Below, one piece after another: positions 4,985 to 26,828 of a stretch of 42,617 bases of DNA (position 1 is the first letter of the stretch; the number at the start of each line of letters is the position of its first letter). The stretch covers positions 6,588-49,204 of the forward strand of contig MNHO01000002.1 of the NCBI GenBank assembly GCA_001919285.1. The letters are read 5' to 3'. The position numbers were made by a program, and so were the translations under genes. Under the pieces are notes generated by a model that had not been told where the DNA came from, did no database searches, and was given only the letters and a program-made list of their open reading frames with translations. The DNA comes from an archaeon 13_1_40CM_2_52_13 (GTDB lineage: Archaea; Thermoproteota; Bathyarchaeia; 40CM-2-53-6).

Positions 4985-7900
4985 CTAGTTGTCCTCGTAG
5001 TTATGAGTTGGATTCCGATAGAGTGGGACGATTCTTACATTCTCAGAATGAGTCTTGGCCATGTGGTCATGTCGAACGCCGATGGGGTTGTGATGTCTTC
5101 TTTTTCGTGCACCCGCGAGCTCAGCGTGCGCTCTGATGTTTAGGACGACAATTGATGATATTACTCCTATCAACCCACCGATGATGAATAGCCACATCGT
5201 GGCGGAGAATCCCCTCGGGAGAATGCAGTTAAGACAGAATCCTCCTGAAGGAGAATTCGAACTATTCGCGACCTGTATTGCTACAGATTTATTGCCCGAC
5301 GCCGCGGGGTTGCTTGGATCAGTCGCGGTGAAGTTTACGACAAACGTCTGCCCAGCTTGGCTCTGACTCGGGGTGAAGGAGAAGGTTCCCGATGCTGTGT
5401 CGAAAGCCATGTTGGAAGCCAACCCTGTAGCCTTGACGTTCACGACCGCAGTGGGGGCAAGTGGGTTCCTAGCATAGACGATGAAACTAAGAGCTGCGCC
5501 GACTGTGGCTGACTGATTCCCGGGCGCGGTAAGAGTAAGAGATTGGGCTGGTTGGATGACAGTTATGAACACGAAGCCCTGAACGGGAGTCACACCGTCC
5601 GTGACAATGAAGCTGACTGTGAAGGTTCCAGTTTGCGCTTGAGTGGGTGTCCATGTGAAAGTTCCGCTCGGCGCAGTTCCTGCCGCGGCTGAGAACGAGG
5701 CGCCTGTAGGAAGCTGGGAGCCGGAGATGGTTAGAACAGGAGCGGGTATAGATGTGTCAGATGCGCTAACCGTAAAGGTGAGGGTCGCAAGCGCGGTAAC
5801 GGTCTCGGTTGAGGGAAGGTTCAGTGTCGGTGGCACATGAGTTCCGAGGAAGTTGAAAGTCGCGGTCGCGGTATGAATCAACCCTCCACTAGTTCCGGTT
5901 ATTGTTAGCGAGTAGGTAGCCGGAATCTGGGAGCTGCAAGAGACCGTTGCCGTGCCATTACTTGTGAAGGACGTCTTTGTGATTGAGTTACAACTTAGCC
6001 CAGAGGGAACGGACGCGGTTAGTATCAGCGTGCTCGTAAACCCATGTATGAGGCTAACGGTTATGGTGGACGTGGCGGAGGAGCCAACGTTGACAGCTGA
6101 AGGTGAGGACGCTACTATTGTGAAATCTGGAGGAATCCCAAAGGTGAACGAAGCTGTCGTCGTATGAGTCAGTGCACCATTCACTGCGGTAATCGTCACA
6201 GTGTAGACGTTCTGGCTTGTTGAGCTACAGGAAAGGGTCGCACTTCCTGAGCCTATGACAGTACCAACACTCAGAGAGCCGCAGGTTAGTCCTGAGGGTA
6301 CCGTGTCGGTAATCGTGATCGTTCCTCCGAACCCGTTTATCGCAGTCAGTGAAATTGTGGAGACTGATGAGGATCCTGGAGCGACCGCCGATGGTGAAGT
6401 AGCGCTGACTCGAAAGTCTCTGAAGTTGAAGGTGGCAATTGTGATGTGAACTAACGCTCCGTTGGTTCCGATTATTGTGAGGAGGTATGTTCCCGCAACG
6501 TTGGAGCTGCATGAGATTGTCGCGCCGCCGGAGCCGCTAATGGTGGTGGGGCTAATCGAGCCACACGTCAATCCCGAGGGTGGGGTGTCTGTAAGGGTGA
6601 CTATCCCGGTGAACCCGTTCTGGGCTGCTGTGGTGATTGTTGAGGTTGCGGATTGGCCCGCGTTTGTTCCTGCCGGACTAGTTCCAGTCAGCGTAAAGTC
6701 CGGTGCAGGGGGACCTAGGCTCAAGAATCTTAGTAGGCAGCCCCATCCGGGTGGGTTGCTGGCGCACTGCATTGCCCCGTATATTCCCGCGTTTGGTGTG
6801 TCCGTCCAGCTTCCCGCTGGCCACCAGATCCAGTTGATTCTCTGAGGCGTATTACTGTCATAGAGGTTGGTTAGGGCTTGTATGAAGTGGAATGTTGTCG
6901 TTGTATATCCTGCGCTTCCCGTTAGGATCTTGTCCGGCGCACAACTCGTGCACAAGGGATCTGGTCCTCCTTCAGTGTTCAGCGCTGGCCATCCTGAGGC
7001 GGTCATGCCTGCGACAACGGCTTGGTAGTATTGTTGGGCCATCGAGTCCGCGGTGGCATTATTCCAGTTGCTGGAGGAGTAGCCCATGTAGCTGTGGAGG
7101 CTGATGAATATCTTTCCTGTAGGGGACTTGCCTAGCGGGTCTGTGACGCTTGGGAATCCGCCTGCCCAGTTGCTCAGTGAGCAGCCGTAGCTGCAGATGT
7201 TCTGGACAACGATCCAGTGAGTATCGCCTTGAGCTCTTGCCTGGTTGATCCATAGCTGATACTCTTGAGATAGGGTGGTAACGCACGCTGAAGCTCCTGA
7301 GCACATGTTGTTGTTTGTGCTGTATCCTGCGCAGGCGGAAGTACTGTAGCATGGCTCGTTGATGGGTTCCCAGATTATCTGGGAGTAGCTGTTCTTGAAC
7401 TGATTAGTGACTCCAGACCAGAAGTTTAGCCAGCATGTGGCTGTAGAAGAGTTGAACACGTCTGAGTATCCGTGGTAGTCGACGATTATCCAGAAACTGA
7501 AGTGTTGCGCGATCGTGATTGCACGTTGAAGATTCGTTGCGCTGTAGGCGCTCATGTATTGTGAGCCGGTGCATGAAGGATCAAAATCAACTCTCACCGT
7601 GTTGTATCCCATAGCTTTCAACTCGATGAGGAGGAGCTCCATGTTCGTCGCGGACTCTCCTGGGAACACCACGGATGGTGTTGATGTTGGCGGTTGCTGA
7701 ACGCCTCCTCCTACAGCGGCTTCGTCTAGTCTGATTCCGCCCCATCCTATCAGGACTGGGACGGAGGTTGTTCCGGCGCTGGGTAGTACGCTGAGTGTTT
7801 GAGAAGTCGTGGAGGTCTTGCCTGCATTGTCAGTGACGGTTAGTGAGATGGTGTACGTCCCGTTCGTGAATGACTGGGATACGGGATTTCCTGTTTTGCT

Positions 7901-9514
7901 TGTTCCTCCGAGGTTCCAGCTGTAACTGTATGGGCTGGTTCCACCGTTTGCAGTCGCAGTGAAGGTTACTGATTGACCCGAAATCGGAAAAACCGGACTG
8001 GTAGTGAAGGTTGCGGTCAACGCGCCAGGAGGAGAAATCGTGATGGTTTGTAATGTTTGGACGCGGGTCAGTGCTGTGTCCGTCACGTTCAGTGAGACTG
8101 TGAAGGTGCCTGACGTGCTAAATGTGTCTGAGGGGTTCTGACTAGTGCTGGAGCTTCCGTCCCCGAATTTCCAGCCGTAAGTGTATGGAGATATTCCTCC
8201 GGCTGCAGAACCACTGAATGTTACGGACTGACCGGATGTAGGTTGGCTTGGGCTGAACGTGAAGCTTGCGGCGAGGGCTGGCACAGGGGAGACTTTGACA
8301 TTCTGAGTTGATTTGGCTGACCCAGCAATTGAGTCTGTCACGGTAAGCGTGACCGTGTAGTTCCCTGTCGTACTGTAGGTATGACTAGTGGTTAGGCCGG
8401 TGCTGGTAGCACCATCACCAAACGACCACGAGTAAGTGTAGGGAGCGGTGCCCCCAGTCCCAACCGCCGTAAAGCTGACGAGAGTGGAGGCGATCGGGGT
8501 TGTTGGTAGATAGGTGAAGCTTGCTGAGAGCGGTGGAGGAACTATCGATCCGAAGATGTCGGACATTGACGAGTCTCCAGAGACTACGCTCGTGATGTAT
8601 GGTAGTCCCCAGTTCGCCTCGATAGTGTGAAGACTGTTGTACTCCGTATAGCCGCCCGTGGATGTGTATCCGACTCTGATCATGCTACCGTATTCGACGT
8701 TCGGGCTGGGATCATATTCGTCCCACCATAGGTAGAGAAAAGTTCCAGGAGTCTTGAGCAAGCTGCTTCCAAGAACTGAAGTCGCGGATGGACCGCTTAG
8801 TGTACCAGTTCCGACGAGCAGGGTCTGTAAGTAAGCATCACCGGTCGACACTGAGTTATCATGCATATTGTGAGAATCGGTCGGTGTGAACCAGATGTAG
8901 TTGGCTGGAGCGGCCGAGTTGAGATAGTTGATGAAGGCTGTGTTCCCTCCTGAGCTTGAGGATCCGTAGAGGGTCAGGCCCGATGGAGTTGACTGGCCCG
9001 TGCAGGTGAAAGCGCCTGTGACACATGTGTTCCATGTGCTTGTCTCGCCTATCCATGGAAAGTGGTCGGCTCCTCTTGGACATCCATCTTCACAGAAGGC
9101 TGCTGAGGTCAATCCGGCAGTAGTAAGCTGGCCCGCAATAGTTGGATCGCTCCTGCAGGGACTTGAGGATCTCGGACACCAGCTGTCACCGACTGTCTGA
9201 AGCCCGGTTACAAAAGCCTGGTAGCATCCTGCACTGCATCCGCCTATCCCCTGGCCGTAGCTGTGATAGTTGGATATGGTAGTGCCTAGTTTGGCGAGGC
9301 TGTTTATGAAGGGAGCAGAGTTGGATCCTATTACCGAACCATAGTTCTGGTTCTCCATTGCGATAATCACGATATGGTTGAAACTACTGCCCGTCGGAGC
9401 GGCAGATGCCGTTGCGGGCAAGGAGAGAAGTATGATACCCACTGAGAGGGCCACAAAGAGCCCTGCGAGTGCTTTTCGATCTAATTCTTGAATTACTCTC
9501 ACTTCTTTTTTCAA
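4985..9514 (-). CDS. Multimodular exported protein: phosphoesterase (phospholipase C/acid phosphatase-like) domain + PKD repeats + GH5-like glycosidase + Ig-like repeats + C-terminal TM
   Basis: N-terminal hydrophobic signal; HIVIIAMENQNYGSVIGSNSAPFINSLA and FLYLWWDEYDPSPNVEYGSMIRVGY...YNSLHTIEANWGL resemble PF04185; three PKD units (YSWSFGDG, YGWKFGDG, YSYSWNLGG); GH5-like YNTVRVDFDPSC, WIIVDYHGYSD, QIIWEPINEP, NTEGGPDP; C-terminal MWLFIIGGLIGVISSIVVLNI. The start may be GTG at 9502, given a TATA-like sequence at about 9519-9524 on the minus strand. Confidence 0.85.
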   Translation of the reverse strand: MKKEVRVIQELDRKALAGLFVALSVGIILLSLPATASAAPTGSSFNHIVIIAMENQNYGSVIGSNSAPFINSLAKLGTTISNYHSYGQGIGGCSAGCYQAFVTGLQTVGDSWCPRSSSPCRSDPTIAGQLTTAGLTSAAFCEDGCPRGADHFPWIGETSTWNTCVTGAFTCTGQSTPSGLTLYGSSSSGGNTAFINYLNSAAPANYIWFTPTDSHNMHDNSVSTGDAYLQTLLVGTGTLSGPSATSVLGSSLLKTPGTFLYLWWDEYDPSPNVEYGSMIRVGYTSTGGYTEYNSLHTIEANWGLPYITSVVSGDSSMSDIFGSIVPPPLSASFTYLPTTPIASTLVSFTAVGTGGTAPYTYSWSFGDGATSTGLTTSHTYSTTGNYTVTLTVTDSIAGSAKSTQNVKVSPVPALAASFTFSPSQPTSGQSVTFSGSAAGGISPYTYGWKFGDGSSSTSQNPSDTFSTSGTFTVSLNVTDTALTRVQTLQTITISPPGALTATFTTSPVFPISGQSVTFTATANGGTSPYSYSWNLGGTSKTGNPVSQSFTNGTYTISLTVTDNAGKTSTTSQTLSVLPSAGTTSVPVLIGWGGIRLDEAAVGGGVQQPPTSTPSVVFPGESATNMELLLIELKAMGYNTVRVDFDPSCTGSQYMSAYSATNLQRAITIAQHFSFWIIVDYHGYSDVFNSSTATCWLNFWSGVTNQFKNSYSQIIWEPINEPCYSTSACAGYSTNNNMCSGASACVTTLSQEYQLWINQARAQGDTHWIVVQNICSYGCSLSNWAGGFPSVTDPLGKSPTGKIFISLHSYMGYSSSNWNNATADSMAQQYYQAVVAGMTASGWPALNTEGGPDPLCTSCAPDKILTGSAGYTTTTFHFIQALTNLYDSNTPQRINWIWWPAGSWTDTPNAGIYGAMQCASNPPGWGCLLRFLSLGPPAPDFTLTGTSPAGTNAGQSATSTITTAAQNGFTGIVTLTDTPPSGLTCGSISPTTISGSGGATISCSSNVAGTYLLTIIGTNGALVHITIATFNFRDFRVSATSPSAVAPGSSSVSTISLTAINGFGGTITITDTVPSGLTCGSLSVGTVIGSGSATLSCSSTSQNVYTVTITAVNGALTHTTTASFTFGIPPDFTIVASSPSAVNVGSSATSTITVSLIHGFTSTLILTASVPSGLSCNSITKTSFTSNGTATVSCSSQIPATYSLTITGTSGGLIHTATATFNFLGTHVPPTLNLPSTETVTALATLTFTVSASDTSIPAPVLTISGSQLPTGASFSAAAGTAPSGTFTWTPTQAQTGTFTVSFIVTDGVTPVQGFVFITVIQPAQSLTLTAPGNQSATVGAALSFIVYARNPLAPTAVVNVKATGLASNMAFDTASGTFSFTPSQSQAGQTFVVNFTATDPSNPAASGNKSVAIQVANSSNSPSGGFCLNCILPRGFSATMWLFIIGGLIGVISSIVVLNIRAHAELAGARKRRHHNPIGVRHDHMAKTHSENVRIVPLYRNPTHNYEDN

Positions 9515-13974: not shown

Positions 13975-14913
13975 TCAATTCGAGATGCGTTTCGCTGTAA
14001 GGTAGCCGAAGCTGTGGCCTATCATGGTAACAGTGAACCCGTGCCTCGAAAGAATTCTCGGTATGTCGAGAGGACCGCTATGGAATTCTAATACGATCTC
14101 GCTGATTGACTCTAGCGCTTTAGCTGGTAACGTTCGGATGATTCCATACTCGCATCCCTCGCAGTTCATCTTGAGAAAGTCGATGTTCTGAACGTTGAAC
14201 CGTTTCATTATTTCTTCGACGGTTACGGTCTCGATCTCCAACGTGTCATCAGCGGTGCTGTAGGGTTCTGCAATCTGCGTGATGTTTGGAGTCTCCGCGT
14301 TGACTCCGAGTTTGGACTCTCCAGTTCTGGTCGACAGGGCTACGTTGAGCAGTATTACTCTGTCTTCGAGGTTGTTTAGCTTGACGTTTTCTCTAGCCAA
14401 CTCCAAGCTTCTGGGGTCAGGCTCGAGTCCGATGACTAGTCTAGCGCCTCGTCTTGCGAAGTAGATGGCGGAGTCGCCATTGTACGCTCCAACGTCTACG
14501 ACGACTTTCTGGTTGAAATCGGAGCCGTAGACTTGTCGAACAAAGATCTCCGATACTAGAGAAATATCAGTACCTTGGTTGAGTCTACACTTAAGCACTG
14601 TCCCCGGCTGGGGGGATAGGAGGAGATAGTCGTTGTCGACGTGTCTTATCTTCCATCCTCGGTTGAGGAGTTTCGCTAGTCCTATTAGGTTGTAGATGGA
14701 CGGGTCGTACCAGCGGTGGTAGTGGTGGAGCGCTTGCGAGAGGCTTGAAGGCTTTCTGGCGAGTGGGATAGTGTTGCCGGTTTTCAGAACCACTTTGCTC
14801 AAAGGTTTTCGTGTGATGTAGTCTGTGGCTATCTCGATCCAGTTCTTGTAGGTCCGCTGGAGAAGCAGAAAGGCGTTGAGCTGGTCTCTTAGAGTCCTGG
14901 CGTTGAGGGACAT
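13975..14913 (-). CDS. FkbM-family SAM-dependent methyltransferase
   Basis: VVVDVGAYNGDSAIYFARRGARLVIGLEPDPRSLELARENVKLNNLEDRVILLNVALS...DFLKMNCEGCEYGIIRTLP. Confidence 0.85.
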   Translation of the reverse strand: MSLNARTLRDQLNAFLLLQRTYKNWIEIATDYITRKPLSKVVLKTGNTIPLARKPSSLSQALHHYHRWYDPSIYNLIGLAKLLNRGWKIRHVDNDYLLLSPQPGTVLKCRLNQGTDISLVSEIFVRQVYGSDFNQKVVVDVGAYNGDSAIYFARRGARLVIGLEPDPRSLELARENVKLNNLEDRVILLNVALSTRTGESKLGVNAETPNITQIAEPYSTADDTLEIETVTVEEIMKRFNVQNIDFLKMNCEGCEYGIIRTLPAKALESISEIVLEFHSGPLDIPRILSRHGFTVTMIGHSFGYLTAKRISN

Positions 14914-14935
14914 TTCGCTCGCTGATTTCCGATGG

Positions 14936-16108
14936 TTATTGTGGGATCATCGGAGCGTCGAGCGCCTGCTGGCCTCGCCTGTTCGCGTCTATCTTCGTCC
15001 ACACTAGCTGCTTGTTTCCTCTGGATTCTTGGATGATCGCTGCCAGCATGGTGATATTGTTCGAGAGATATGTGCTGGCGGCCGTTCTCAGGCTTGGCAC
15101 GGCGGCGACTATTACTGTTCCAATCGCAACTAGAGCCGCGACCAATAGGTTGGTGATCATCACCCATCCCGTTAGGATGATGAATATTGGGAAGATGATT
15201 GGATTTATTGCGTAGATGAAGAACTCCATGGGAAAGATCAGTCTCGAAAAAACGTTCTTTCCAGACAATAGTCTCTTGTGTTTGAGGAAGGCCTGGAGCA
15301 CGTGCTGTCCTCGCCGGATCTTCTGTGTAAACCTGATTCCCCAGGCCGGCGGGGCGGGATCGAAGAACACGACATCTTCGGCGCTTATTGCTCTGAAGCC
15401 TTTCTCTATCATGCAGAGCGCGGCACAGGTGTCGTCGCCTCCAACGTTCGGATCGAACCCTGTTTGGTCTTGGCGACGGAAGACCTGAATTTCACCCTCA
15501 CCCACCGGCGTGCTGTGGAGTTTTGACTCTGTGATTCTCAGCATTCGGTAGATGGAACGGTATGATCCTTCGACGTTTCCGGCCATTGTCTCGTTTGAGC
15601 TTGGAATGTGATGGACTCCCGAGACTGACCCTACAGTAGGGTCTGATAGGTATCTTGCAGCGTTTCCAAGCGCTTGTCTGTCCCATTTGCACTCGGCGTC
15701 ACTGATGCAGACCAGTTCGCCCAGGGCATGTTTCAACCCAATGTTAAGGGCGCCTGATTTTCCGGATCTCTCCTTCTCTTCAACGACCTGCCCTCTGAGA
15801 CGATTCTGAGCGAAGAAATCCCTGGCCAGGTCTGCGGTATTGTCGGTCGAACCGCTATCAACAACGATAACATCGATTCTATCAGACGGGTAGTCCGAGA
15901 GCGAGATGTTTGACAGTTTCTCCTTGATGACCGTCGCTTCATTGTATGTGGGAATGATGATGCTGATAGTGGGCTGTCTCTCCGATCCGATCGCGAGATT
16001 GTAGCCGCGTCTCGAACCGATCCTCTTCATGACGCCGAAATAAGCAAGCGGCACGCCCAGGTGAATTGTACCGGCAGCGATCCAGAAGATCAGGAGAAGG
16101 CTGGTCAA
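14936..16108 (-). CDS. Glycosyltransferase family 2 with C-terminal TM segments
   Basis: TISIIIPTYNEATVIKEKLSNISLSDYPSDRIDVIVVDSGSTDNT...ICISDAECKW...GGDDTCAALCMIEKGFRA...RRGQHVLQAF. Confidence 0.88.
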   Translation of the reverse strand: MTSLLLIFWIAAGTIHLGVPLAYFGVMKRIGSRRGYNLAIGSERQPTISIIIPTYNEATVIKEKLSNISLSDYPSDRIDVIVVDSGSTDNTADLARDFFAQNRLRGQVVEEKERSGKSGALNIGLKHALGELVCISDAECKWDRQALGNAARYLSDPTVGSVSGVHHIPSSNETMAGNVEGSYRSIYRMLRITESKLHSTPVGEGEIQVFRRQDQTGFDPNVGGDDTCAALCMIEKGFRAISAEDVVFFDPAPPAWGIRFTQKIRRGQHVLQAFLKHKRLLSGKNVFSRLIFPMEFFIYAINPIIFPIFIILTGWVMITNLLVAALVAIGTVIVAAVPSLRTAASTYLSNNITMLAAIIQESRGNKQLVWTKIDANRRGQQALDAPMIPQ

Positions 16109-17640
16109 GATAGAATCTCGCTCGTAAAGCCATCAGCTCCATAGCCGGTAACCAATTCCGCTTGTAAGTTCGCTGTTCCATCGGGAGAAATAATCGCTAG
16201 ATGTCCATCTGTTAATTCCCAGCGGGCTCTTCCTCGAAGCTTCCACCAGTCAGCCATTTCACCAAGAGTCATGATGCTGCACTGAGGATCAGAGGCAAAG
16301 TTCTCGAGAAGCCTCTCATATTCGTGAACATTCTCTTCCCGTGCAAGCTCGTAGTCTGGATGCACGAGCAGGATGCAGGGGCCTCCGAGACCCCGTATCC
16401 ACTTGGAGAAGCGCATCCACATGTCAACTGCGACCGACGGTTCGAGTCCGGCGACCCTGATTAGCTGATGATCTTGCGGAAGCGAGACAGGAATCTCCAA
16501 CGTGTCAGATATTTCGAACGGGAAGACTGTGCCGACCCCATGAGGGCGGAGGGAGGTTGGGGACAGAATTTCCCACGAAGGGCAGGAGGAATCGTACGAG
16601 TAGCCTGCCTTCGCCGCGGCTGAAACCAGGTCCGCGTTGTGTTGTAGAAGCGGGGATCGGAATCCGCGAACCTCCTCGCCTGTCAACTTTTCCAATACCT
16701 TTTTGCAGTCTTGAAGCCGTCGGACCTTCTCTTCAGAATCGAGGAATATGAGTCTCCCGTCATGTGCAGTATCGTGGGCACCAACTTCACCGTTCTCGGT
16801 CAGAAGGCGAAGCGATCCCGGTGGCAGCGGATATCGGGCGCTTGGAACATTCCAAGTCGACCGGATTCTCAGATTTCTTTCTACGGACAGGAGTCTGGGA
16901 GCTCCCTTGTCAAGACCGGCCTCTGTCTCGACGTCATGAGTCACAGCGAGAGCGTAGGATTTTCCGCGCCTCCAGAAGGCAATTCGAGCAATGGGGCCTG
17001 AGGATAGGATTAAGCTGGCCAAGAATATTGTCCTAAGGCATTCAACAGGTCCCATCTTTTCCTCGGTGATCTGACCCGCTCCCTCGGAGGATCGGAATGA
17101 TCGGTCTCGAAGGAATCGCGGTATTGACTGGTACGAGAAGGGCAGTTTGGTCGCCAGCCAGAACTTCCTGCTGGGTCTGTCTTCGAATCCACCGTAGACT
17201 CTTCTAACGTATTCGCCTACAAGGTCTACGCTAAGTAGATAGGTTTCCGTTCCATGGATTTTCGAAAGGATCGAAAAGTCTCCGGATCGCAGAATCGGAT
17301 CTAGATTGGGTCCGGAAAATTCGTAAACGTCCGTTCTAAGCCAAACCTCAACGTCCCGCGCTACCGAGAGAGTGATCGCTGCCTCCTTTGGGGTCAGTGT
17401 GAGTCCGTGGTCGCGGGCAACCGTCTCGGCGCCGTCTCTACCAGTAGGCGAGACGATAACCGCAGCATCTCTCGCCGGCGCCGTCTGGTTGACAGTTGTG
17501 AAGATGGTATGTTGCTCGCCTGGCGGTGCTCTGGTCCGCCAGGGTATTTTCCAGAACTCGGCATACCCGCTCAAAATCTTCGAGTCGGACGGAGTAGCGG
17601 CTTGCAGGACGATCGGTCGATACTGCGATACAAGTGTCAA
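16105..17640 (-). CDS. Polysaccharide deacetylase (CE4/NodB-like)-containing protein
   Basis: SYALAVTHDVETEAGLDKG...GEVGAHDTAHDGRL...EKLTGEEVRGFRSPLLQHNADLVSAAAKAGYSYDSSCPSWE. 4-nt overlap with the next gene. Confidence 0.75.
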   Translation of the reverse strand: MTLVSQYRPIVLQAATPSDSKILSGYAEFWKIPWRTRAPPGEQHTIFTTVNQTAPARDAAVIVSPTGRDGAETVARDHGLTLTPKEAAITLSVARDVEVWLRTDVYEFSGPNLDPILRSGDFSILSKIHGTETYLLSVDLVGEYVRRVYGGFEDRPSRKFWLATKLPFSYQSIPRFLRDRSFRSSEGAGQITEEKMGPVECLRTIFLASLILSSGPIARIAFWRRGKSYALAVTHDVETEAGLDKGAPRLLSVERNLRIRSTWNVPSARYPLPPGSLRLLTENGEVGAHDTAHDGRLIFLDSEEKVRRLQDCKKVLEKLTGEEVRGFRSPLLQHNADLVSAAAKAGYSYDSSCPSWEILSPTSLRPHGVGTVFPFEISDTLEIPVSLPQDHQLIRVAGLEPSVAVDMWMRFSKWIRGLGGPCILLVHPDYELAREENVHEYERLLENFASDPQCSIMTLGEMADWWKLRGRARWELTDGHLAIISPDGTANLQAELVTGYGADGFTSEILS

Positions 17641-17642
17641 TT

Positions 17643-18371
17643 CTAGTGTCTCGCGCCGAGTCGGAGTAGGACTATCGGACCTACTATCTGCTGCCAGTCT
17701 TTCAATGGGGATATGTGGGAGTATGACTCTCGTTTCGTATGGGAGTAGATCTTTGACACTGGCCGCTCGGTGAATCTGTAGCCCAGCGTCAGGACTTTGT
17801 AGTGGAGATAGTATTCTAGCTCGTATCCGTTCAGCCAGTCTTGCCAGATGTTGATCTCAGGATCCTCAAGTATCGAAGCCCTGTAGGCTCTAAAGCCGTT
17901 TGTAACTTCGGTGCATCTGACCCCTGTAAGGAAGGTCCAGGCAAATGGGAAGAGACGCGTGAAGATTCTTCTCAAGAAAGGTGTCCTTTCGCCTCTTCCT
18001 CCCGGGAGGAATCTTGATCCTTGGACATAGTCGTAGCCGTTCTTGGAGATGGGCTCTGTCAGACGCGAGATTTCTCTGGGATCGTCCTTGCCGTTACCCG
18101 CCATAACGACGATCAGGTCGAATCCGTGGGAGAGCGCATATCGGTAGCCCTTCTTGATCGCGAAGCCTATACCATTCCTTGCAGGGTTCTTGATAATAGT
18201 AACGGGAACTTGGGTCCTCGCTCTGGAGTCGTCGATTTCCTTTAGGATCGTTTCGTCGGGGTAGTCTACGACTAGGCAGACTTCGTCGACCGATTCGGGC
18301 GTGAATCTTTCGATTACGGTTCCAATCTTGCCGATTTCTCGATAGACCGGAATTATCGCAAGGCGTCTCAT
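17643..18371 (-). CDS. Glycosyltransferase family 2 (dolichol-phosphate sugar synthase-like)
   Basis: LAIIPVYREIGKIGTVIERF...VCLVVDYPDETILKEIDD...RNGIGFAIKKGYRYALSHGFDLIVVMAGNGKDDPREISRL...YVQGSRFLPGG. Confidence 0.85.
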   Translation of the reverse strand: MRRLAIIPVYREIGKIGTVIERFTPESVDEVCLVVDYPDETILKEIDDSRARTQVPVTIIKNPARNGIGFAIKKGYRYALSHGFDLIVVMAGNGKDDPREISRLTEPISKNGYDYVQGSRFLPGGRGERTPFLRRIFTRLFPFAWTFLTGVRCTEVTNGFRAYRASILEDPEINIWQDWLNGYELEYYLHYKVLTLGYRFTERPVSKIYSHTKRESYSHISPLKDWQQIVGPIVLLRLGARH

Positions 18372-18874
18372 CGACTAGTTCTAACTCTACTACTAGACAG
18401 GTGGCCGTTCTGTTCGTCGGGTGCGGGTCTTGAACCCACGACTCTCGCGGGAATACCCACAGCGATGGCATTGTCAGGTACGTTTTTCGTGACGACTGAG
18501 CCCGCGCCTATCAGAGCGTTTTCACCGATCTGTACTCCCGGGTTTATAGTGCTCCCCGCTCCGATGGATGCGTTCTTCTTGACTCTCGTGTTGAGCCGTG
18601 TCCATTCTCCGTGAGCTCGCGGGTGCTTGTCGTTGGTGAACGTGACGTTAGGCGCTATGAAGACATTGTCTTCTATGACTACTCCGGTCGGTATGAAGAC
18701 GAAGGGTCGGATCTTACAATTGTCTCCGATGGAGACTCCTTCTTCAATGTACACGTAGGAGTCTATCTTCGTGTTCTTGCCAATCTTGCATCCGTACAGG
18801 TTTACCTGGTCGTAGACGCGTGAGTCGCGTCCTATTGTTGCTTTCTTGATTACTGAGTATTTGGGACGTTTCAT
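18368..18874 (-). CDS. Hexapeptide-repeat (left-handed beta-helix) acyltransferase, WbpD/WlbB-like
   Basis: IGKNTKIDSYVYIEEGVSIGDNCKIRPFVFIPTGVVIEDNVFIAPNVTFTNDKHPRA...IGAGSTINPGVQIGENALIGAGSVVTKNVPDNAIAVGIPARVV. Confidence 0.9.
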   Translation of the reverse strand: MKRPKYSVIKKATIGRDSRVYDQVNLYGCKIGKNTKIDSYVYIEEGVSIGDNCKIRPFVFIPTGVVIEDNVFIAPNVTFTNDKHPRAHGEWTRLNTRVKKNASIGAGSTINPGVQIGENALIGAGSVVTKNVPDNAIAVGIPARVVGSRPAPDEQNGHLSSSRVRTSR

Positions 18875-19893
18875 TTTGCCGGTATCGCCGGGATTATCGG
18901 GAGCTGGACTTGAACTGTTCGGTCTTGGAACATTGACTCTCTTGAGGCTTCCAGGAGGGCTACTACTCTTGCGCCTAGTATTCCGTCAGACTGGTTCGAG
19001 TACGGTGTCGAATCCTGGTTGTTGCGGATACAGTCGTAGAAGTGGCGTATTTCATCTCCAAGCGTGTTGCTGACCGAGACCGGGATCTCTCGTCTGCCTC
19101 CCTGTAGCTCGAGAGCGAGCTTCTGTTCGACGCAGTCAAGATTCGCTGTCCCCTTGCTTCCAACAACAGTAACTTCTCTTCGCTTATCTCGGTCTAGCCA
19201 GCTGAGCTCTACGTGAGCGATTAGGCCTCCCTTGTAGTCTGCGGTTATGAAAGCTAGTTCTTCATTCTGCTTGGTCCTGTAGCCTCGTCCCTTGCACGCG
19301 AGCTTCTCGGGCCAGGCGTCGACGAGATAGTTGCAGATGTCGAAGGGGTGGGGAGCTAGGTCGGTTATGACCTCCCTCAGTAGTTGAGGGTTCATGAGGG
19401 CCGTCCATCTTAGACGCAGATAGTACACGTCTCCTATGCCTCCGTCGGCGAGGACGCGCTTTAGTTCTCTGACACCGTTGTTAAACCGGTGAATGTGTCC
19501 TACGCAGAGGACTGCTCTGTTCTCATTGGCAAGCCTTACGAGTTCGTATGCTTCCTCGGTCCTCAGGGTGAGAGGCTTCTCGACGAGTACATGTTTGCCT
19601 TGTCGGAGGAATGTTGCGGCTACTTCGAAGTGGGTGCTGTTTGGAGTACAGATATGGACTCCGGTTAGTGACGGGTCCATTGCGAGAGAGTGATAGTCTG
19701 TTCGATATTCGAGGTTTCCGCCAAATTCTCTTTTGCATTGGGTGAGTGATTCTGGAAAGTTGTCCACGATGGAGTGGAGTTGGCTTGAGCCTGTTGCTCG
19801 ACTAATGTCAAGGGTTTCGCGTATTACCTTCTTTCCCCAATAGCCGCCGCCAATAACAGCTATGCGCAGAGGGTTCATTTTTCTTGGAGCCAC
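18871..19893 (-). CDS. Gfo/Idh/MocA-family oxidoreductase, UDP-sugar 3-oxidase-like
   Basis: LRIAVIGGGYWGKKVIRE...VHICTPNSTHFEVAATFLRQGKHVLVEKPLTLRTEEAYELV...VGHIHRFN. Start GTG 19893 or ATG 19878. 4-nt overlap with the acyltransferase gene. Confidence 0.88.
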   Translation of the reverse strand: MAPRKMNPLRIAVIGGGYWGKKVIRETLDISRATGSSQLHSIVDNFPESLTQCKREFGGNLEYRTDYHSLAMDPSLTGVHICTPNSTHFEVAATFLRQGKHVLVEKPLTLRTEEAYELVRLANENRAVLCVGHIHRFNNGVRELKRVLADGGIGDVYYLRLRWTALMNPQLLREVITDLAPHPFDICNYLVDAWPEKLACKGRGYRTKQNEELAFITADYKGGLIAHVELSWLDRDKRREVTVVGSKGTANLDCVEQKLALELQGGRREIPVSVSNTLGDEIRHFYDCIRNNQDSTPYSNQSDGILGARVVALLEASRESMFQDRTVQVQLPIIPAIPAK

Positions 19894-20193: not shown

Positions 20194-21303
20194 TTGGACA
20201 GTATAACAATCGTGAGCCCGCGCTACCCTCCATATGTTGGAGGAGTAGAGACTCACGTTTCGCAGCTGGCACAACGAGCGACGAAATTCTTCCGACGAGT
20301 CTCCGTAATCACAACAGACCCTCTGGGCAACCTACCTTCAATTCAGAATGTTGATGATTATCTCACAATCTTCAGAATCAAATCCCTTGCCCCCCGGGAG
20401 AACTATCACTTTCCCTCCCCCTCAGGCTTATTCAAAGTGCTCAAACAGTCTCGTCCGCAAGTTCTTCACTTGCACTGCATCCACGACATTCCAGGTCCCA
20501 TCGCGGGGATCATGCGAGGAAACAGCTCACTGATTTTCACTCCCCACTATGTTGGCCGCTTGAACTCAGGGCTGGGACGCATTCTCTTTAGAGCTTACCG
20601 TCCATTCATCAGAGAACTCGTCGCCCACGTTCCAAGAGTAATCTGCATCTCCAGATTCGAGGCTCGTCTGATGACCGACACTTTCCCGGAATCTGCAGGA
20701 AAAGTGGAAATCATCCCGAACGGGATTGCTTCTGACCTCAGAGAGAAGAACCAGTGGCGAGAGCCTGAGGAGCCGACGATTCTCTACGCGGGTAGGTTGG
20801 AGAGATACAAGAACGTCGACAAGGTCATGAGGGCGGTCGCGAAATTGCGGGAGAAGAACGATAGGCTGAGGATGAGAATCGTTGGTAGGGGCCCAGTAAA
20901 GGGCGAGCTCGAAAAGTTATCACACACCCTTGGATTGAACGACGGTGTGGAATGGTACGATAGACTTCCACAGAGGGACCTCTTTCCGCTGTACGCGTCC
21001 AGCACGGCCGTGGTTCTTGCTTCAGAACATGAGAACTGGGGTAATACTGTAGCTGAGGCTATTGGGGTGGGTGTTCCTACGATTGTTGCGAATGCTTCCT
21101 CCCTCGCAGAGTTTGTTGAGGAGGGCCTTGCGGTCCCCGTCGAGCCCCCGATGGACGAGCTGAAGCTTGCAGCGAAGATTGGTGAGGTTATCGATGATCC
21201 GAAGAAATTCTCGCCCAAGGGGAAACAGTCACCCTTAATCATCTCGTGGGATGAGGCGGCCGAAAAGACGTTCGCACCGTGCATGTCGCTAGTCAATTCG
21301 TGA
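20194..21303 (+). CDS. Glycosyltransferase family 4
   Basis: VSPRYPPYVGGVETHVSQLAQRA...TILYAGRLERYKNVDKVMRAVAKLREKNDRLRMRIVGRGPVKGELEKLS...LYASSTAVVLASEHENWGNTVAEAIGVGVPTIV. Confidence 0.9.
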   Translation: MDSITIVSPRYPPYVGGVETHVSQLAQRATKFFRRVSVITTDPLGNLPSIQNVDDYLTIFRIKSLAPRENYHFPSPSGLFKVLKQSRPQVLHLHCIHDIPGPIAGIMRGNSSLIFTPHYVGRLNSGLGRILFRAYRPFIRELVAHVPRVICISRFEARLMTDTFPESAGKVEIIPNGIASDLREKNQWREPEEPTILYAGRLERYKNVDKVMRAVAKLREKNDRLRMRIVGRGPVKGELEKLSHTLGLNDGVEWYDRLPQRDLFPLYASSTAVVLASEHENWGNTVAEAIGVGVPTIVANASSLAEFVEEGLAVPVEPPMDELKLAAKIGEVIDDPKKFSPKGKQSPLIISWDEAAEKTFAPCMSLVNS

Positions 21304-21319
21304 CCGGAGAGGTTTCGGA

Positions 21320-22375
21320 ATGAGTTTTCTTGAGGAGGTAGGAATTGTCAAGACAGCCCGCAGAGAGGCCGAATCTGTCCTGCTGGCAAGAGCTGTGATT
21401 AGAAGAGAGCCGATTCATCCGATCAACAAGGAGAGGTTCCTGAAGCTAGCAAAGAACAACAAAGTTACTCTGAGAGCCGCGCCAATTCTCAACGCGCCAG
21501 CAGAGGTTGTTGACGAGGCCAAGACCGAGTTTGCCGAGGCAATGGAGTTGTACGATCTGATGAGTAAAGAGTTCCAGAAGTTGGGTGTATCATTTGTTGT
21601 GATAAAATCCTTCGACTCATTGCCTGACATGGGACACGACCTTGACTTTCTCTTACCTCACTCTTCCGAGTTTGGAGAGGCAAGAGGGATGCTCTTGGAC
21701 AAGTTCAGAGTCAAGCCTCAGCCACTAACACACTGCGACAAGTTGGTGGGAAAGTTCAGCTGCTTCCTCCCAGGCTTCAAACACGACTTCGAATTGTATC
21801 CGACAATCAGCCAGCTCGGCGAGCAGCACGTAGAACCAAACAATATTCTACGGGACCGAAGGATCGAGAAGATCGAGGGCCGGAACGTCTGGGTAACATC
21901 AGACCTGGACCGAGTGCTTATCAGAATAATTCATGCAATGTTCCGCCACAACTTCCTGAAACTATCAGACGTCATAGACTTTGAAGCGTTATCAAGAAAC
22001 TGTTCAACGCAAGAGATTCTCGACGCAGTTGACAAGGCCGATATTGGAGACGCGTTCCTATTCTTCATCGGTGCCATCGATCGATTCTTGAAAGCTTGCG
22101 GCGTTGAGAGCCCGACAATGCGAGATCTGACACAAGCGGGACAGAAGAGGTTCGGAAAGGATCGACTGGGAGTGCTACGGAGAGACAGGCTCGTGCTCCC
22201 GTATAGGATACCAACCGTCGCAATCATACTCATCTTTCTACTCAAAGGAGCGAGAGAAGCATCAAAGGGAAGATGGCGTAGCTCGCTGAGCTGCCTTGTA
22301 ACTCCGCCCCTTCTCTTCCTCGACTTCATCAACGCAGTCTCCCATAACCGACTCTTGGGCAGGAGGATCTGGTAG
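21320..22375 (+). CDS. Nucleotidyltransferase-like protein (NTP_transf_5-like), substrate unknown
   Basis: Possible catalytic signature FVVIKSFDSLPDMGHDLDFLLPHSSEF and FKHDFELYPTISQLGEQHVEP; ATG start with ggagagg 8 nt upstream. Confidence 0.55.
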   Translation: MSFLEEVGIVKTARREAESVLLARAVIRREPIHPINKERFLKLAKNNKVTLRAAPILNAPAEVVDEAKTEFAEAMELYDLMSKEFQKLGVSFVVIKSFDSLPDMGHDLDFLLPHSSEFGEARGMLLDKFRVKPQPLTHCDKLVGKFSCFLPGFKHDFELYPTISQLGEQHVEPNNILRDRRIEKIEGRNVWVTSDLDRVLIRIIHAMFRHNFLKLSDVIDFEALSRNCSTQEILDAVDKADIGDAFLFFIGAIDRFLKACGVESPTMRDLTQAGQKRFGKDRLGVLRRDRLVLPYRIPTVAIILIFLLKGAREASKGRWRSSLSCLVTPPLLFLDFINAVSHNRLLGRRIW

Positions 22376-22376
22376 A

Positions 22377-23000
22377 CTGAAGACCATCATAGTAACCCTC
22401 AGCGGGACCCACGGAACAGGCAAGTCGACGCATGCAGGAAGAACCTACTACCTTCTCAATCATTCGGGACACAAATTCTCTTATCTCAGACATCAAGATC
22501 TTATCGATCCTTTTGGGTTCATCCTGAGAAGAGGAGCCAGGGTCCTTGGTTTCGCCCAGACAAACCAGCTCGAGAGAATGAAGCCTGTTAGGGTTCTCTG
22601 GTCGCTCTACTTTCTATTCGTCTACTGTCCACTGCTTGTCGGCGGAATCAGAATACGGAGAGCGTTGGGGTACAGTGTCGTTGCTGACCGTTATCTCTAC
22701 GATCTGATCGTTGCCTTCTGGGGCAATCAGACCCATGTTCCACTTGAGCATCTGCTCGTCTGGATAATTCCGAGGCCGGACGTGTCGTTCATTCTGGATG
22801 CTGACGAGGAACGTATACTTGCCAATAGGCCCGAGCATACCGCTGAGTTCATTCGGAATGAGAAGAGGCTCTATGACGGAGTTGCCAGGTACTTCGGATT
22901 GGAGAAGATTCGGACAACAACTTCGGCGGCCACGACGTGGAAGCGAATGGTGGCCGAGATCGAAGCGTCCCTCCAACAGGCTTCGTCGAGAAACAACTAG
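22377..23000 (+). CDS. P-loop nucleotide/sugar kinase-like protein (thymidylate kinase fold); ORF track begins at an internal Met (22578)
   Basis: The frame extends upstream of 22578: (CTG)KTIIVTLSGTHGTGKSTHAGRTYYLLNHSGHKFSYLRHQDLIDPFGFILRRGARVLGFAQTNQLERMKPV... Walker A GTHGTGKST; later VVADRYLYDLIVAF. AGGAGG at 22361-22366 sits 10 nt before CTG 22377; no ATG/GTG/TTG lies in this frame around 22341-22376. Confidence 0.8.
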   Translation: MKTIIVTLSGTHGTGKSTHAGRTYYLLNHSGHKFSYLRHQDLIDPFGFILRRGARVLGFAQTNQLERMKPVRVLWSLYFLFVYCPLLVGGIRIRRALGYSVVADRYLYDLIVAFWGNQTHVPLEHLLVWIIPRPDVSFILDADEERILANRPEHTAEFIRNEKRLYDGVARYFGLEKIRTTTSAATTWKRMVAEIEASLQQASSRNN

Positions 23001-23014
23001 CTTGGGTGGTTTTG

Positions 23015-24541
23015 GTGAAGGCGATGATTATTGGGCTCGACGCCGCCTCGCCTCCACTCATCGAGAGATGGATTGACCGTCTCCCCAACCTACGAACTCT
23101 CTATCAATCGGGGACTCATGGAACCCTGTTATCAATAGTTCCTCCCTCCAGCGTTCCTGCGTGGCAGTGTTTTGCGACCGGGAAGAACCCGGCAAAGATC
23201 GGCGTCTGGGGCTTCCTTTCCATCGGGCCGGATCGACGACTGAGACATGGAAAGACGACGGAGGAAATCGGTTGCCTCTGGGATACATGTGGAAAGGCAG
23301 GTCTCAGGGTCGGGGTCTTCAACATTCCCGGAACCTATCCACCCTATCCTGTAAACGGTTTCATGGTATCCGGATTCCCGACACCACCAGGAAAGGATTG
23401 GGCGTATCCGAAGGATCTGATGAAGAGACTAGATCAGACAGTCGACGGCTACGAGATCGATGTTCCGCTCACAAAGCCCTCCGAAATGCGTGGCGGCGAG
23501 GAAGCCTATCTTGCCCAAGTGGAGAGACTCCACACGAAGAGTTTGGAATCGGCAAAACTACTGCTAGAGTGGTTCAAACCAGATCTATTCTTCATGACTC
23601 TGCAAGGCATCGATATGGTCCAACACGATTTCAGCCGATACATGGACAGGCCTGAATCAGAATATTCTAATGTGGTTCGAGACTGGTATATCCGGCTCGA
23701 CCAGGCAGTTGGCGAACTGAGAGAGTTCACAACTCCGGAGACCTACCTGCTCGCTTTGTCAGACCATGGTTCAATGCCGATCACTACATCATTTCACGTC
23801 AACGAATATCTCAAAGCGCAAGGCATTCTGAAAGTCAAGAACCGTTCAGAGAAGAAGAGCCGTGAAATCTATACGCCGTTGCGAAAGATGATCCTCAAGA
23901 CTCTGCCGCCCAACGCGATCAAGGCTGTCTACAGGCTGACTCCTGACAGGATCGCCCACAAACTTACTGTCTCCGCCCAACACGAGAGGACCCTGACTCG
24001 ACTGGTCGATAGCATTGATTGGAGTAACACCAAAGCGTTCTCTACGGGAGGTCCTCAAGCAGCCATCTACATCAACTCCACAAATTACAATGCTGGATCA
24101 CTACAGAACCCCGAACTGCGCGCCGAACTTGTAGAGAATCTGGAGACTATGCTGGGTGAGCTTACTCATCCATCAACCGGCGAAAGGATACGCGCCGTGT
24201 ACCATCGTAGGGAGGACACGTTCCAGGGTCCCTACGCGATGGAGGCTCCGGACCTCGCCGTTGAGTTATTCGGGAAAGACGAAAAGATCCACATCAACAT
24301 TACACTCGGGTCAGGAGAAATCTGGACCTTCGCGCCGCATCTGTCATCCGAGCACGTTCGAGAAGGATTCTGGTGCATGACAGGACCAGGCGTGCCAAAG
24401 AATCTGAGATTAGATGCGAGTATCCTTGATCTGGCTCCGACCCTCCAGAAAATGCTGAGGCTAGAAGTCTCTCAGGACGTTGACGGCAAGATCTTAACCC
24501 AGCTGTTAGGGCAGGCCATCGTAATCCACGCTGAAGACTAG
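23015..24541 (+). CDS. Alkaline phosphatase superfamily protein (type I phosphodiesterase/nucleotide pyrophosphatase-like)
   Basis: MIIGLDAASPPLIERWIDRLPNLRTLYQSGTHGTLLSIVPPSSVPAWQCFATGKNPAKIGVWGFLSI...PDLFFMTLQGIDMVQHDF...YLLALSDHGSMPITTSFHVNEYL. Start GTG 23015 or ATG 23024; the tracked start (22937) lies inside the kinase gene. Confidence 0.88.
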   Translation: MKAMIIGLDAASPPLIERWIDRLPNLRTLYQSGTHGTLLSIVPPSSVPAWQCFATGKNPAKIGVWGFLSIGPDRRLRHGKTTEEIGCLWDTCGKAGLRVGVFNIPGTYPPYPVNGFMVSGFPTPPGKDWAYPKDLMKRLDQTVDGYEIDVPLTKPSEMRGGEEAYLAQVERLHTKSLESAKLLLEWFKPDLFFMTLQGIDMVQHDFSRYMDRPESEYSNVVRDWYIRLDQAVGELREFTTPETYLLALSDHGSMPITTSFHVNEYLKAQGILKVKNRSEKKSREIYTPLRKMILKTLPPNAIKAVYRLTPDRIAHKLTVSAQHERTLTRLVDSIDWSNTKAFSTGGPQAAIYINSTNYNAGSLQNPELRAELVENLETMLGELTHPSTGERIRAVYHRREDTFQGPYAMEAPDLAVELFGKDEKIHINITLGSGEIWTFAPHLSSEHVREGFWCMTGPGVPKNLRLDASILDLAPTLQKMLRLEVSQDVDGKILTQLLGQAIVIHAED

Positions 24542-24548
24542 CTCTTTT

Positions 24549-25892
24549 TCACGAAGATAGCCCTAGACCAACTCCGAGATAATTGAATCCGTCAAAGTCG
24601 TCCCGCTTGATTATTCTCCGGGCATCGACAATGTTTAGAGTCTTCATATTCGACTTGTAGTCGCTAGGCTTCAATTTTCGGAACTCGTCCCACTCTGTCA
24701 TTACAATGCAACAGTCAGCACCCTTGAGGCAAGAAATAGCATCTTGCATCAGCTCTACCCTATCACCCAGAATCCGACGGGCGTTCTCTACCGCCATCGG
24801 ATCGTAAGCCGAGACCTTGGCACCGTTCTTCAACAACTCGTCAATAACACGTACCGATGCGGCCTCTCTCATATCGTCGGTGCCTTTCTTGAACGCTAGT
24901 CCAAGAACCGCGATTCGACAATTGTCCAAGGACCCCAAGAGTTTCTTCGAAAGATTGACGATCTCTGATGCCTGTCGCTGGTTGACTTCCTCGACAGCGG
25001 TAAGAAGAAGCGGATCATAGTCTTTGGAACGACCGAACGAGATCAGGGCTTGGAGGTCTTTGTGGAAGCAGGACCCACCGTAGCCAGGACCGGCTTTGAG
25101 ATAGAGGGGACCGATTCGAGGATCTAGGCCGATGGCCTTTGCAACCGTCTCTACGTCTGCGTTGGGGACACGTTGGCATATGTTGGCAATGGTGTTGATC
25201 GTGCTTACCCTGGTCGCGAGGAACGCGTTACTGGCGTACTTAATGGTCTCAGCAGTTGTCGGGTCAGTTACAATGGTAGGGACTTTTGATTTTGAGTAGA
25301 TTCGCCTGTAGAGTTTGGTAAGAGTCGTGCTCGACTTGGCATCTGACGCGCCTATTACGATCTTGTCGGGATGGAGGGTTCCATTTATGGCGGATCCTTC
25401 GGCGAGAAACTCGGGGTTGCTAGATAGTCCCAGCTCTGGGCCGCAGACCTTCTCGCTTGACGCTTCAAGGACAGGTCTGACCACGTCGGTTGTGGTTCCT
25501 GGGGTAACTGTGCTCTTAACGACGACGTGATGATAAGCTGGAGATCCTGCGATGGCAGATCCCACATCTTGAGTCGCCTTCTTCACGTAAGTGAGATCGA
25601 TGGATCCATCTTCTCTGCTCGGCGTCCCAACAGTCAAGAAAACTGTGCTTGAATCAGAAACCTGTGATGCATCTGTCGTAAACTCGATTCGTCTCTTTCT
25701 CACCACTGTTTTGAGCATCGGTTGAAGCTGTGGCTCGTGAAATGGTGGGTGTCCCTTCCGAAGTTCTTCGATCCGTTTTTCGTCAACATCTACTCCGATG
25801 ATTCGGATTCCCCTTGATGCCATGACAGTCGCGGTGCAGAGGCCGACGTAGCCTAGACCGACGAAAGAGACCGATTCGGGTTGTCGTCCCAT
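24549..25892 (-). CDS. ugd: UDP-glucose/GDP-mannose 6-dehydrogenase family
   Basis: VSFVGLGYVGLCTATVMASRGIRIIGVDVDEKRIEELRKGHPPFHEPQL...FLAEGSAINGTLHPDKIVIG...YASNAFLATRVSTINTIANIC...GPGYGGSCFHKDLQAL. Confidence 0.93.
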   Translation of the reverse strand: MGRQPESVSFVGLGYVGLCTATVMASRGIRIIGVDVDEKRIEELRKGHPPFHEPQLQPMLKTVVRKRRIEFTTDASQVSDSSTVFLTVGTPSREDGSIDLTYVKKATQDVGSAIAGSPAYHHVVVKSTVTPGTTTDVVRPVLEASSEKVCGPELGLSSNPEFLAEGSAINGTLHPDKIVIGASDAKSSTTLTKLYRRIYSKSKVPTIVTDPTTAETIKYASNAFLATRVSTINTIANICQRVPNADVETVAKAIGLDPRIGPLYLKAGPGYGGSCFHKDLQALISFGRSKDYDPLLLTAVEEVNQRQASEIVNLSKKLLGSLDNCRIAVLGLAFKKGTDDMREAASVRVIDELLKNGAKVSAYDPMAVENARRILGDRVELMQDAISCLKGADCCIVMTEWDEFRKLKPSDYKSNMKTLNIVDARRIIKRDDFDGFNYLGVGLGLSS

Positions 25893-25910
25893 GCTAGCTC
25901 AGCCGGCGGG

Positions 25911-25922
25911 GGGCTTATATTG
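25911..25922. promoter_or_regulatory. Shared TATA-like element between divergent ugd and galU
   Basis: gggCTTATATTgt reads as CTTATATT on plus and AATATAAG on minus; ~25 nt from the ugd ATG (25892) and ~45 nt from the galU GTG (25962). Confidence 0.4.
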
Positions 25923-25961
25923 TTGAAATTGGTAGAGCGATTAGTACCGGCTGATTGTTGC

Positions 25962-26828
25962 GTGTTAAGGAAAGCAGTTATTCCCGCAGCAGGCTTGGGC
26001 ACAAGGCTTCTGTCCGCTACTAAGGAGCAGCCGAAGGAGATGCTGCCGATTTTCTCCAGAGCAAAGAACGGAGACCTCTGTCTCAAGCCAGTCGTCCAGC
26101 TGGTATTCGAGCAGCTCTACCTTGCCGGCTTTCGCGAATTCTGTTTCATCGTAGGAAGAGAGAAGAGAGCGATAGAGGACCATTTCACGCCTGATTTCTC
26201 TTATGTGTCGATGCTTCAGAGCAAGGGAAAGACTGGTCCCTCGGAGGATCTGAAGTCATTCTATGAGATGATCGAAGGGTCCACTCTAGTCTGGATTAAC
26301 CAGCCGGAGCCTCGGGGTTTTGGAGACGCGGTGTTAAAGGCGAAGACGTTCATTGGAGCTGACAGTTTCTTAGTACACGCGGGCGATACTTACATTCTAT
26401 CTGAGAACTCGAGACACCTCAGGCGCTTGATTGACAGCAGTGAGGGTTCGAAAGCCGACGCGGCCTTCCTAGTTCAGCAAGTTCAAGATCCTCGGCGGTA
26501 TGGGGTTGTAGAGGGCGATAGAGATTCTGCTGGAGTCGTCCGGGTGTCACGCGTTGTGGAGAAACCTCAGAAGCCAGCGTCCAACTTGGCGATAATGCCA
26601 GTCTACGCTTTCCACTCAGTGATTCTGAAAGCGTTGGAAGTTACTCAGACAGGTTTTGGCGGCGAGATCCAGTTGACTGATGGGATTCAAAAGATGGTCG
26701 ACTGGGGGTTAAATGTGCGCGCGGTGGAGTTTGAGAAAAGCGACATTCGTCTGGATATTGGTTCTCCCGAGTTGTACTGGGAGGCCCAGAATCTCTCGTA
26801 CAAGTATTCGAATCCTGCTCCAAAGTAG
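25962..26828 (+). CDS. galU: UTP-glucose-1-phosphate uridylyltransferase
   Basis: VLRKAVIPAAGLGTRLLSATKEQPKEMLPIF...PVVQLVFEQLYLAGFREFCFIVGREKRAIEDHF...EPRGFGDAVLKA...FLVHAGDTYI. The tracked start (25881) overlaps the ugd start; GTG 25962 fits the family N-terminus. Confidence 0.9.
   Translation: MLRKAVIPAAGLGTRLLSATKEQPKEMLPIFSRAKNGDLCLKPVVQLVFEQLYLAGFREFCFIVGREKRAIEDHFTPDFSYVSMLQSKGKTGPSEDLKSFYEMIEGSTLVWINQPEPRGFGDAVLKAKTFIGADSFLVHAGDTYILSENSRHLRRLIDSSEGSKADAAFLVQQVQDPRRYGVVEGDRDSAGVVRVSRVVEKPQKPASNLAIMPVYAFHSVILKALEVTQTGFGGEIQLTDGIQKMVDWGLNVRAVEFEKSDIRLDIGSPELYWEAQNLSYKYSNPAPK

Follow-up and report, generated by a model that had tools for sequence, protein, structure and literature searches.

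A 42,617-nucleotide stretch of DNA from the archaeon 13_1_40CM_2_52_13 (contig MNHO01000002.1; the whole stretch is called the window here) carries, inside a glycan locus, genes for a GT4-family glycosyltransferase (GT4), a nucleotidyltransferase-like protein (NTase), a P-loop kinase of the thymidylate kinase (TMK) fold (Kin) and a phosphodiesterase-type phosphohydrolase (PDE). An earlier note on this DNA had proposed them as a four-gene system for phospho-modification of a surface glycan or lipid. We found that this unit is drawn too wide at the scale of the phylum Thermoproteota, where the core is Kin plus NTase. Because that pair recurs across the phylum and is sometimes fused into a single protein, the two proteins almost certainly function together. 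Tentatively, we read the window as one version of a two-enzyme module, a kinase and an NTase-like protein, for the phospho-modification of surface glycans in Thermoproteota.

A profile of the NTases from the window's family detected relatives in four further genomes of the class, each with a relative of Kin no more than about 1.5 kb away. With a broader NTase profile (A4), NTases were found in 62 of 398 Thermoproteota genomes, spread over many families. We searched the surroundings of 60 broad-profile hits with NTase and Kin profiles; 59 of these loci, all outside the seed set, yielded the NTase open reading frame (ORF). Kin overlapped the NTase, lay within 100 bp of it or was fused to it at 25 of the 59, and stood within 2.5 kb at 37; where at least 2.5 kb of DNA was present on either side (n = 44), the corresponding counts were 23 and 33. 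Kin mostly precedes NTase, and the reverse order is also present. The same holds for the fused proteins, with Kin ahead of NTase in L165 (536 amino acids, both Pfam families over cut-off) and L176 (540 amino acids, the order judged from match position) and NTase ahead of Kin in L096 (595 amino acids). Some pairs share only 15–25% identity and have differing neighbours. Given divergent pairs, both gene orders, both fusion domain orders and different neighbours, we rejected pairing by chance; fusions of opposite order, together with 15–25%-identity pairs in different surroundings, rule out mere shared synteny. Co-occurrence across archaeal genomes, named in the earlier note as a check for all four families, stands in Thermoproteota for the Kin–NTase pair, but not for the GT4, which is variable, or the PDE, which is family-specific.

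The glycan setting extends beyond the window. Of 44 pairs, 33 have a GT2 or GT4 gene no more than 5 kb away, 24 have one as a direct neighbour, and 13 have sugar epimerases nearby. In a small control, GT2 or GT4 genes were found within 1.5 kb at 0 of 17 canonical thymidylate (dTMP) kinase loci versus 13 of 23 similarly flanked NTase loci (self hits included). The placement in a glycan locus made in the earlier note was thus borne out, both by Pfam and NCBIfam neighbours within the window and at phylum scale. Only two of 14 control genomes, each of a bacterium, reached the cut-off of PF14907, the Pfam family nearest to the NTase, and a tblastn search of plasmids with a Kin–NTase fusion as query gave no match.

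Several loci hold extra copies or further kinases. Two tandem Kin genes precede a single NTase in L089 (8804-10306) and two NTases lie beside one close Kin in L174 (6146-9583), local duplications that suggest diversity of acceptors. A second TMK-like kinase, Kin2, which is 19–23% identical to the window Kin, occurs in the same glycan loci of relatives (L034:6763-7506, L035:12779-13435, L023:4381-5076, L024:2286-3038, L097:1377-2072). In L023, L034 and L035 the protein that follows it begins VCFVGDDAHPPWNHA, and 'PPWN' proteins like this one flank NTase or Kin elsewhere, in L038 (GT4 by Pfam), L164, L168, L169, L204 and L218.

The relatives of the window are mostly soil 'Candidatus Bathyarchaeota' metagenome-assembled genomes (MAGs), BA_21 and 13_1_40CM_3_52_10 among them, and include UBA185. 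Of the 21 genomes in its family, 19 contain a relative of the NTase. NTase–Kin–PDE is contiguous and co-directional in 17 of those 19, so the gene order conserved among relatives is that of three genes, and it is far beyond chance. G008 has all three within 3.3 kb, with Kin inverted behind PDE, and in G003 the set is divergent and runs NTase–PDE–Kin–GT4, its members being PF14907, PF01663, Kin and GT4 proteins. In G009 and G019, incomplete MAGs in which no NTase was found, Kin and PDE were likewise not found. Only 7 of the 17 contiguous genomes have the GT4 immediately ahead of NTase, with no GT4 relative at that position in the rest, and so the family unit is NTase–Kin–PDE and not a fixed quartet. 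Full-length PDE relatives also occur away from the pair in other Bathyarchaeia (about 100 kb from it in G059, for example), which indicates local recruitment of the PDE. On both grounds we rejected a fixed four-gene unit: the PDE is a lineage-specific addition, the GT4 is variable, and the phylum-wide unit is Kin plus NTase. Neighbours mostly kept beside NTase–Kin–PDE in relatives are the GFO/IDH dehydrogenase, the hexapeptide acetyltransferase, the AglJ/dolichyl-phosphate-type GT2 and the deacetylase-like gene. In the family comparison, NTase, Kin and PDE diverge at about the rate of the GT4 and the deacetylase, and outpace the hexapeptide sugar-nucleotide enzyme, as would be expected of enzymes acting on variable glycans.

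The four ORFs of the window are intact and co-directional, with gaps of 16, 1 and 14 bp, just as the earlier note had read them. The CTG start of Kin is credible because relatives begin at the equivalent codon with ATG, GTG or TTG. All four proteins are 72–75% identical to those of the nearest relative, L021, and the differences fall mostly in third codon positions. With dN at about 0.18–0.21 and dS at least 2.4 or saturated, purifying selection has maintained all four genes as proteins. The genome that holds the window is 1.5 Mb and 52% complete.

Hidden Markov model searches put the family labels of that note on unequal footings: GT4 (a two-domain match to PF13439 and PF00534, both over the Pfam cut-off) and PDE are firm, whereas NTase and Kin match below cut-off and take their folds from models. 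Both of the latter were expected to have intact active sites, and their catalytic motifs are conserved and their models fold accordingly.

Kin scores 18.6 bits against PF02223 (cut-off 27). Its AlphaFold2 model has a predicted local distance difference test (pLDDT) score of 91, Foldseek matched it to dTMP kinases (probability 1.00), and a profile search against solved dTMP kinases gave 8e-22. Fold, P-loop and DR motif are common to Kin and dTMP kinases (TIGR00041/PF02223). However, dTMP kinases have Ser or Thr at the last position of DRYxx[S/T] (20 of 20 aligned rows), where Kin and its relatives have Asp (42 of 43 aligned paired kinases). Kin reaches 18.1 bits against TIGR00041, far from the equivalog cut-off of 83.25, and it coexists with a separate housekeeping dTMP kinase, over the curated cut-off, in 17 of 18 genomes of the genus, including G000, the window's own. 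We therefore rejected Kin as the housekeeping enzyme. We did not rely on kinase trees, whose support was weak (46) where paired kinases split from dTMP kinases. Elsewhere in G000 (C3:4634-5979; L157, L159), two dTMP-kinase genes in tandem exceed the TIGR00041 cut-off, and tandem dTMP-kinase matches also occur on a single contig of G009.

The NTase scores 25.0 bits against PF14907, under the gathering cut-off of 31.2. Paired relatives in L094, L165 and P0001 exceed it (scores among them of 50.2, 50.9 and 66.7 bits), and for this reason we regard the window protein as a divergent, remote relative of PF14907 (NTP_transf_5), a family labelled an uncharacterised nucleotidyltransferase and without known activity. 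The structure prediction that the earlier note had called for (pLDDT 88) gave a Pol-beta-like nucleotidyltransferase fold with conserved catalytic acids. Foldseek matched it to Pol-beta-type nucleotidyltransferases, best to MenT1 (E 1.3e-4, probability 1.00, TM-score 0.67 on target) and then to TM1012, while a sequence search of the PDB gave non-significant matches only (E 0.39 and above). On the model, the fold, the DxD motif and a third acidic residue are all consistent with a Pol-beta-type enzyme. Family members conserve an IKSFDSLPDxGHDxD stretch, the DFE strand and D217, and the broad set conserves K96, D109 and D217.

The PDE is a full match to PF01663, the type I phosphodiesterase/nucleotide pyrophosphatase family (118.9 bits, cut-off 23), and has the expected residues. 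D9, S46, D200, H204, D250, H251 and H447 are invariant in 14 relatives, and we take them, from what is known of the alkaline phosphatase superfamily, to be the metal-binding and nucleophile residues. The presumed nucleophile is Ser and not Thr as in PF01663 type I phosphodiesterases. The protein is probably cytosolic, because its catalytic domain begins directly at the protein start. A PDB sequence search with the PDE returned nothing significant and no solved close relative.

Table 1. Cassette genes, their motifs and annotated neighbours in the window (positions of the window).
Feature	Position	Strand	Start, match or conservation
GT4-family glycosyltransferase, variable cassette member	20194..21303	+	TTG start; PF00534 1.6e-30, PF13439 2.3e-20
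NTase, PF14907-like, Pol-beta-fold nucleotidyltransferase-like (predicted), core	21320..22375	+	ATG start; PF14907 1.7e-5, below cut-off
NTase DxD motif (D107, D109)	21638..21646	+	both nearly invariant in family; D109 kept in 90% or more of broad set
NTase candidate third catalytic acid, D156-F-E158	21785..21793	+	D156, E158 invariant in family; distant members have D/E or His
NTase D217, downstream Asp	21968..21970	+	sole residue invariant across 18 aligned sequences
Kin, thymidylate-kinase-fold P-loop kinase, core	22377..23000	+	CTG start; PF02223 0.0016, below cut-off
Kin P-loop GTHGTGKST	22404..22430	+	G10, T11, H12, G13, G15, K16, S17, T18 invariant in family
Kin DRYLYD motif	22686..22703	+	Asp where dTMP kinases have Ser/Thr
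PDE, alkaline-phosphatase-superfamily phosphohydrolase/phosphodiesterase, family-specific accessory	23015..24541	+	GTG start; PF01663 4.8e-34
FkbM methyltransferase, GT2, deacetylase-like, AglJ/dolichyl-P-hexose-type GT2, hexapeptide acetyltransferase, GFO/IDH dehydrogenase	13975..19893	-	Pfam, NCBIfam
UDP-glucose 6-dehydrogenase-like (UGD)	24549..25892	-	TIGR03026 3e-131
GalU-like UTP-glucose-1-P uridylyltransferase	25881..26828	+	TIGR01099 7.8e-58, below cut-off

In the mechanism that we propose, Kin, with its TMK fold and non-thymidylate character, would phosphorylate an acceptor of the glycan pathway such as a sugar, an alditol or a lipid-linked saccharide. The NTase, as a Pol-beta-fold protein of PF14907 type, would then act on the phosphate made by Kin on the same substrate, transferring a nucleotidyl or glycosyl group from a donor, and the outcome would be a phosphodiester-type decoration or cap. 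The PDE, as an addition to the operon in soil Bathyarchaeota, most likely hydrolyses a phospho-ester and would so edit, trim or recycle. Phospho-modification of a surface glycan or lipid, as the earlier note had it, is plausible on this evidence, with nucleotide-sugar activation as a live rival.

By analogy, the best functional precedent for Kin–NTase appears to be a lasso-peptide kinase together with PsmN. In pseudomycoidin, PsmK phosphorylates the C-terminal Ser, and the hexoses on the phosphoserine require the NTase-like PsmN; a review does not decide whether PsmN itself acts as the glycosyltransferase (PMC9266682). In both cases the genes are adjacent, a kinase makes (or would make) the phosphate, and an NTase-like protein is (or would be) needed for the further group. 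The lasso-peptide kinase is annotated as HPr-kinase-like (PMC7533575), in contrast to the TMK fold of Kin, and the lasso system has a peptide substrate, is bacterial and is without a glycan locus. We found no lasso peptide gene or HPr-type kinase among the annotated ORFs of the window.

Several points weigh against phospho-modification by a Kin–NTase module. The parallel between PsmN and the NTase is one of description. TMK-fold kinases usually phosphorylate phosphates, and nucleotide-type substrates would fit as well. At 22 of the 59 NTase loci, Kin lay more than 2.5 kb away or was not detected, some of the contigs being short. Finally, some distant NTases carry Asn as the first Asp and His as the third acid, so identical chemistry is not required of all of them.

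The alternative that survives best, which we consider possible if rather unlikely, is nucleotide-sugar or nucleotide-alditol activation: Kin would phosphorylate a sugar or sugar phosphate, the PDE would remove another phosphate, the NTase would form the NDP-sugar and the GT4 would transfer it. The gene set matches these kinase, phosphatase, NTase and glycosyltransferase roles well, and the glycan context fits. HldE and FKP are kinase–NTase fusions, and HddA/GmhB/HddC form a kinase–phosphatase–nucleotidyltransferase route to GDP-heptose. In each a kinase and an NTase cooperate, and the Kin–NTase fusions resemble HldE and FKP. However, by NCBIfam search these families are unrelated to ours: beyond the weak dTMP-kinase match of Kin, neither Kin nor NTase matched any NCBIfam family, sugar-activating ones included. 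The predicted Pol-beta fold of the NTase is unlike that of RmlA/GalU or HddC. Other folds might support the chemistry of sugar activation. The PDE is absent from pairs outside the family, with another PF01663 protein only in G003, and the pairs diverge like glycosyltransferases. We have a moderate preference for phospho-modification over sugar activation, because the NTase fold is unusual for the latter, because divergence is GT4-like and because Kin and NTase are duplicated within loci.

Lipid-carrier enzymology, in which Kin and NTase would form or recycle a phosphorylated polyprenyl or archaeal lipid carrier used in glycan assembly (by polyprenol phosphorylation, for example) and the PDE would cleave a spent carrier ester, seems improbable. 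The adjoining GT2 is of the AglJ/dolichyl-phosphate-hexose type, flippase-like genes adjoin some pairs, and the models show a long hydrophobic Kin helix (residues 69-96) and hydrophobic C-terminal helices in the NTase. Yet no membrane-spanning domain was seen in the proteins, and such a function ought to be universal, not confined to the 62 genomes. A toxin–antitoxin system, with a MenT/AbiEii-like NTase toxin and a kinase antitoxin, is very hard to sustain: MenT1 toxin chains are the nearest solved structures and M. tuberculosis has an NTase toxin whose antitoxin is a kinase, but identity to MenT1/AbiEii toxins is 11–13%, their partner and genomic setting are different, the NTase has no Pfam AbiEii match and pairs with a P-loop kinase, fusion makes a neutralising partner unlikely, glycosyltransferases are neighbours throughout the phylum, and presence in 19 of the 21 genomes of the family, almost always at one glycan-locus site, contrasts with patchy toxin–antitoxin loci.

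The flanks of the cassette add some detail on the locus. In the window, the dehydrogenase/acetyltransferase pair at 18368-19893 (WbpB/WbpD-like from gene order) has no adjoining DegT-type aminotransferase gene, which does adjoin the pair in several relatives (e.g., L026:11059-12231, L024:8140-9258). Further upstream, a 1640-amino-acid ORF (16-4938) with many imperfect Ig-like repeats and a C-terminal membrane anchor at its end, both recognised by eye, is likely a surface protein close to the glycan locus. Next to it (4985-9514), a 1509-amino-acid ORF reads by eye as a secreted-phosphoesterase-like start FNHIVIIAMENQNYGSV, PKD-like repeats and then a cellulase-like part; counterparts of its parts appear to be separate ORFs in L034 (263-1759, 2230-3852).

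To our knowledge, phosphorylated glycans are little known in Thermoproteota. Open-access papers on PF14907, the Kin–NTase pair and Thermoproteota phospho-glycans yielded nothing relevant; since most subscription literature lay outside coverage, this is weak evidence, on which the Kin–NTase system looks undescribed. More tentatively still than the reading of the window itself, the pair might represent an undescribed, phylum-wide archaeal system that adds phosphate-linked caps or branches to surface glycans, built on a new kinase family ([DE]RxxxD, TMK fold) and a PF14907-type transferase, to which soil Bathyarchaeota would have added a dedicated phosphohydrolase. The pair occurs in dozens of archaeal genomes and the fused protein bears both domains, which makes for a directly testable entry point. 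If true, this system would account for proteins that are likely annotated as thymidylate kinases and would reveal a new archaeal cell-surface chemistry.

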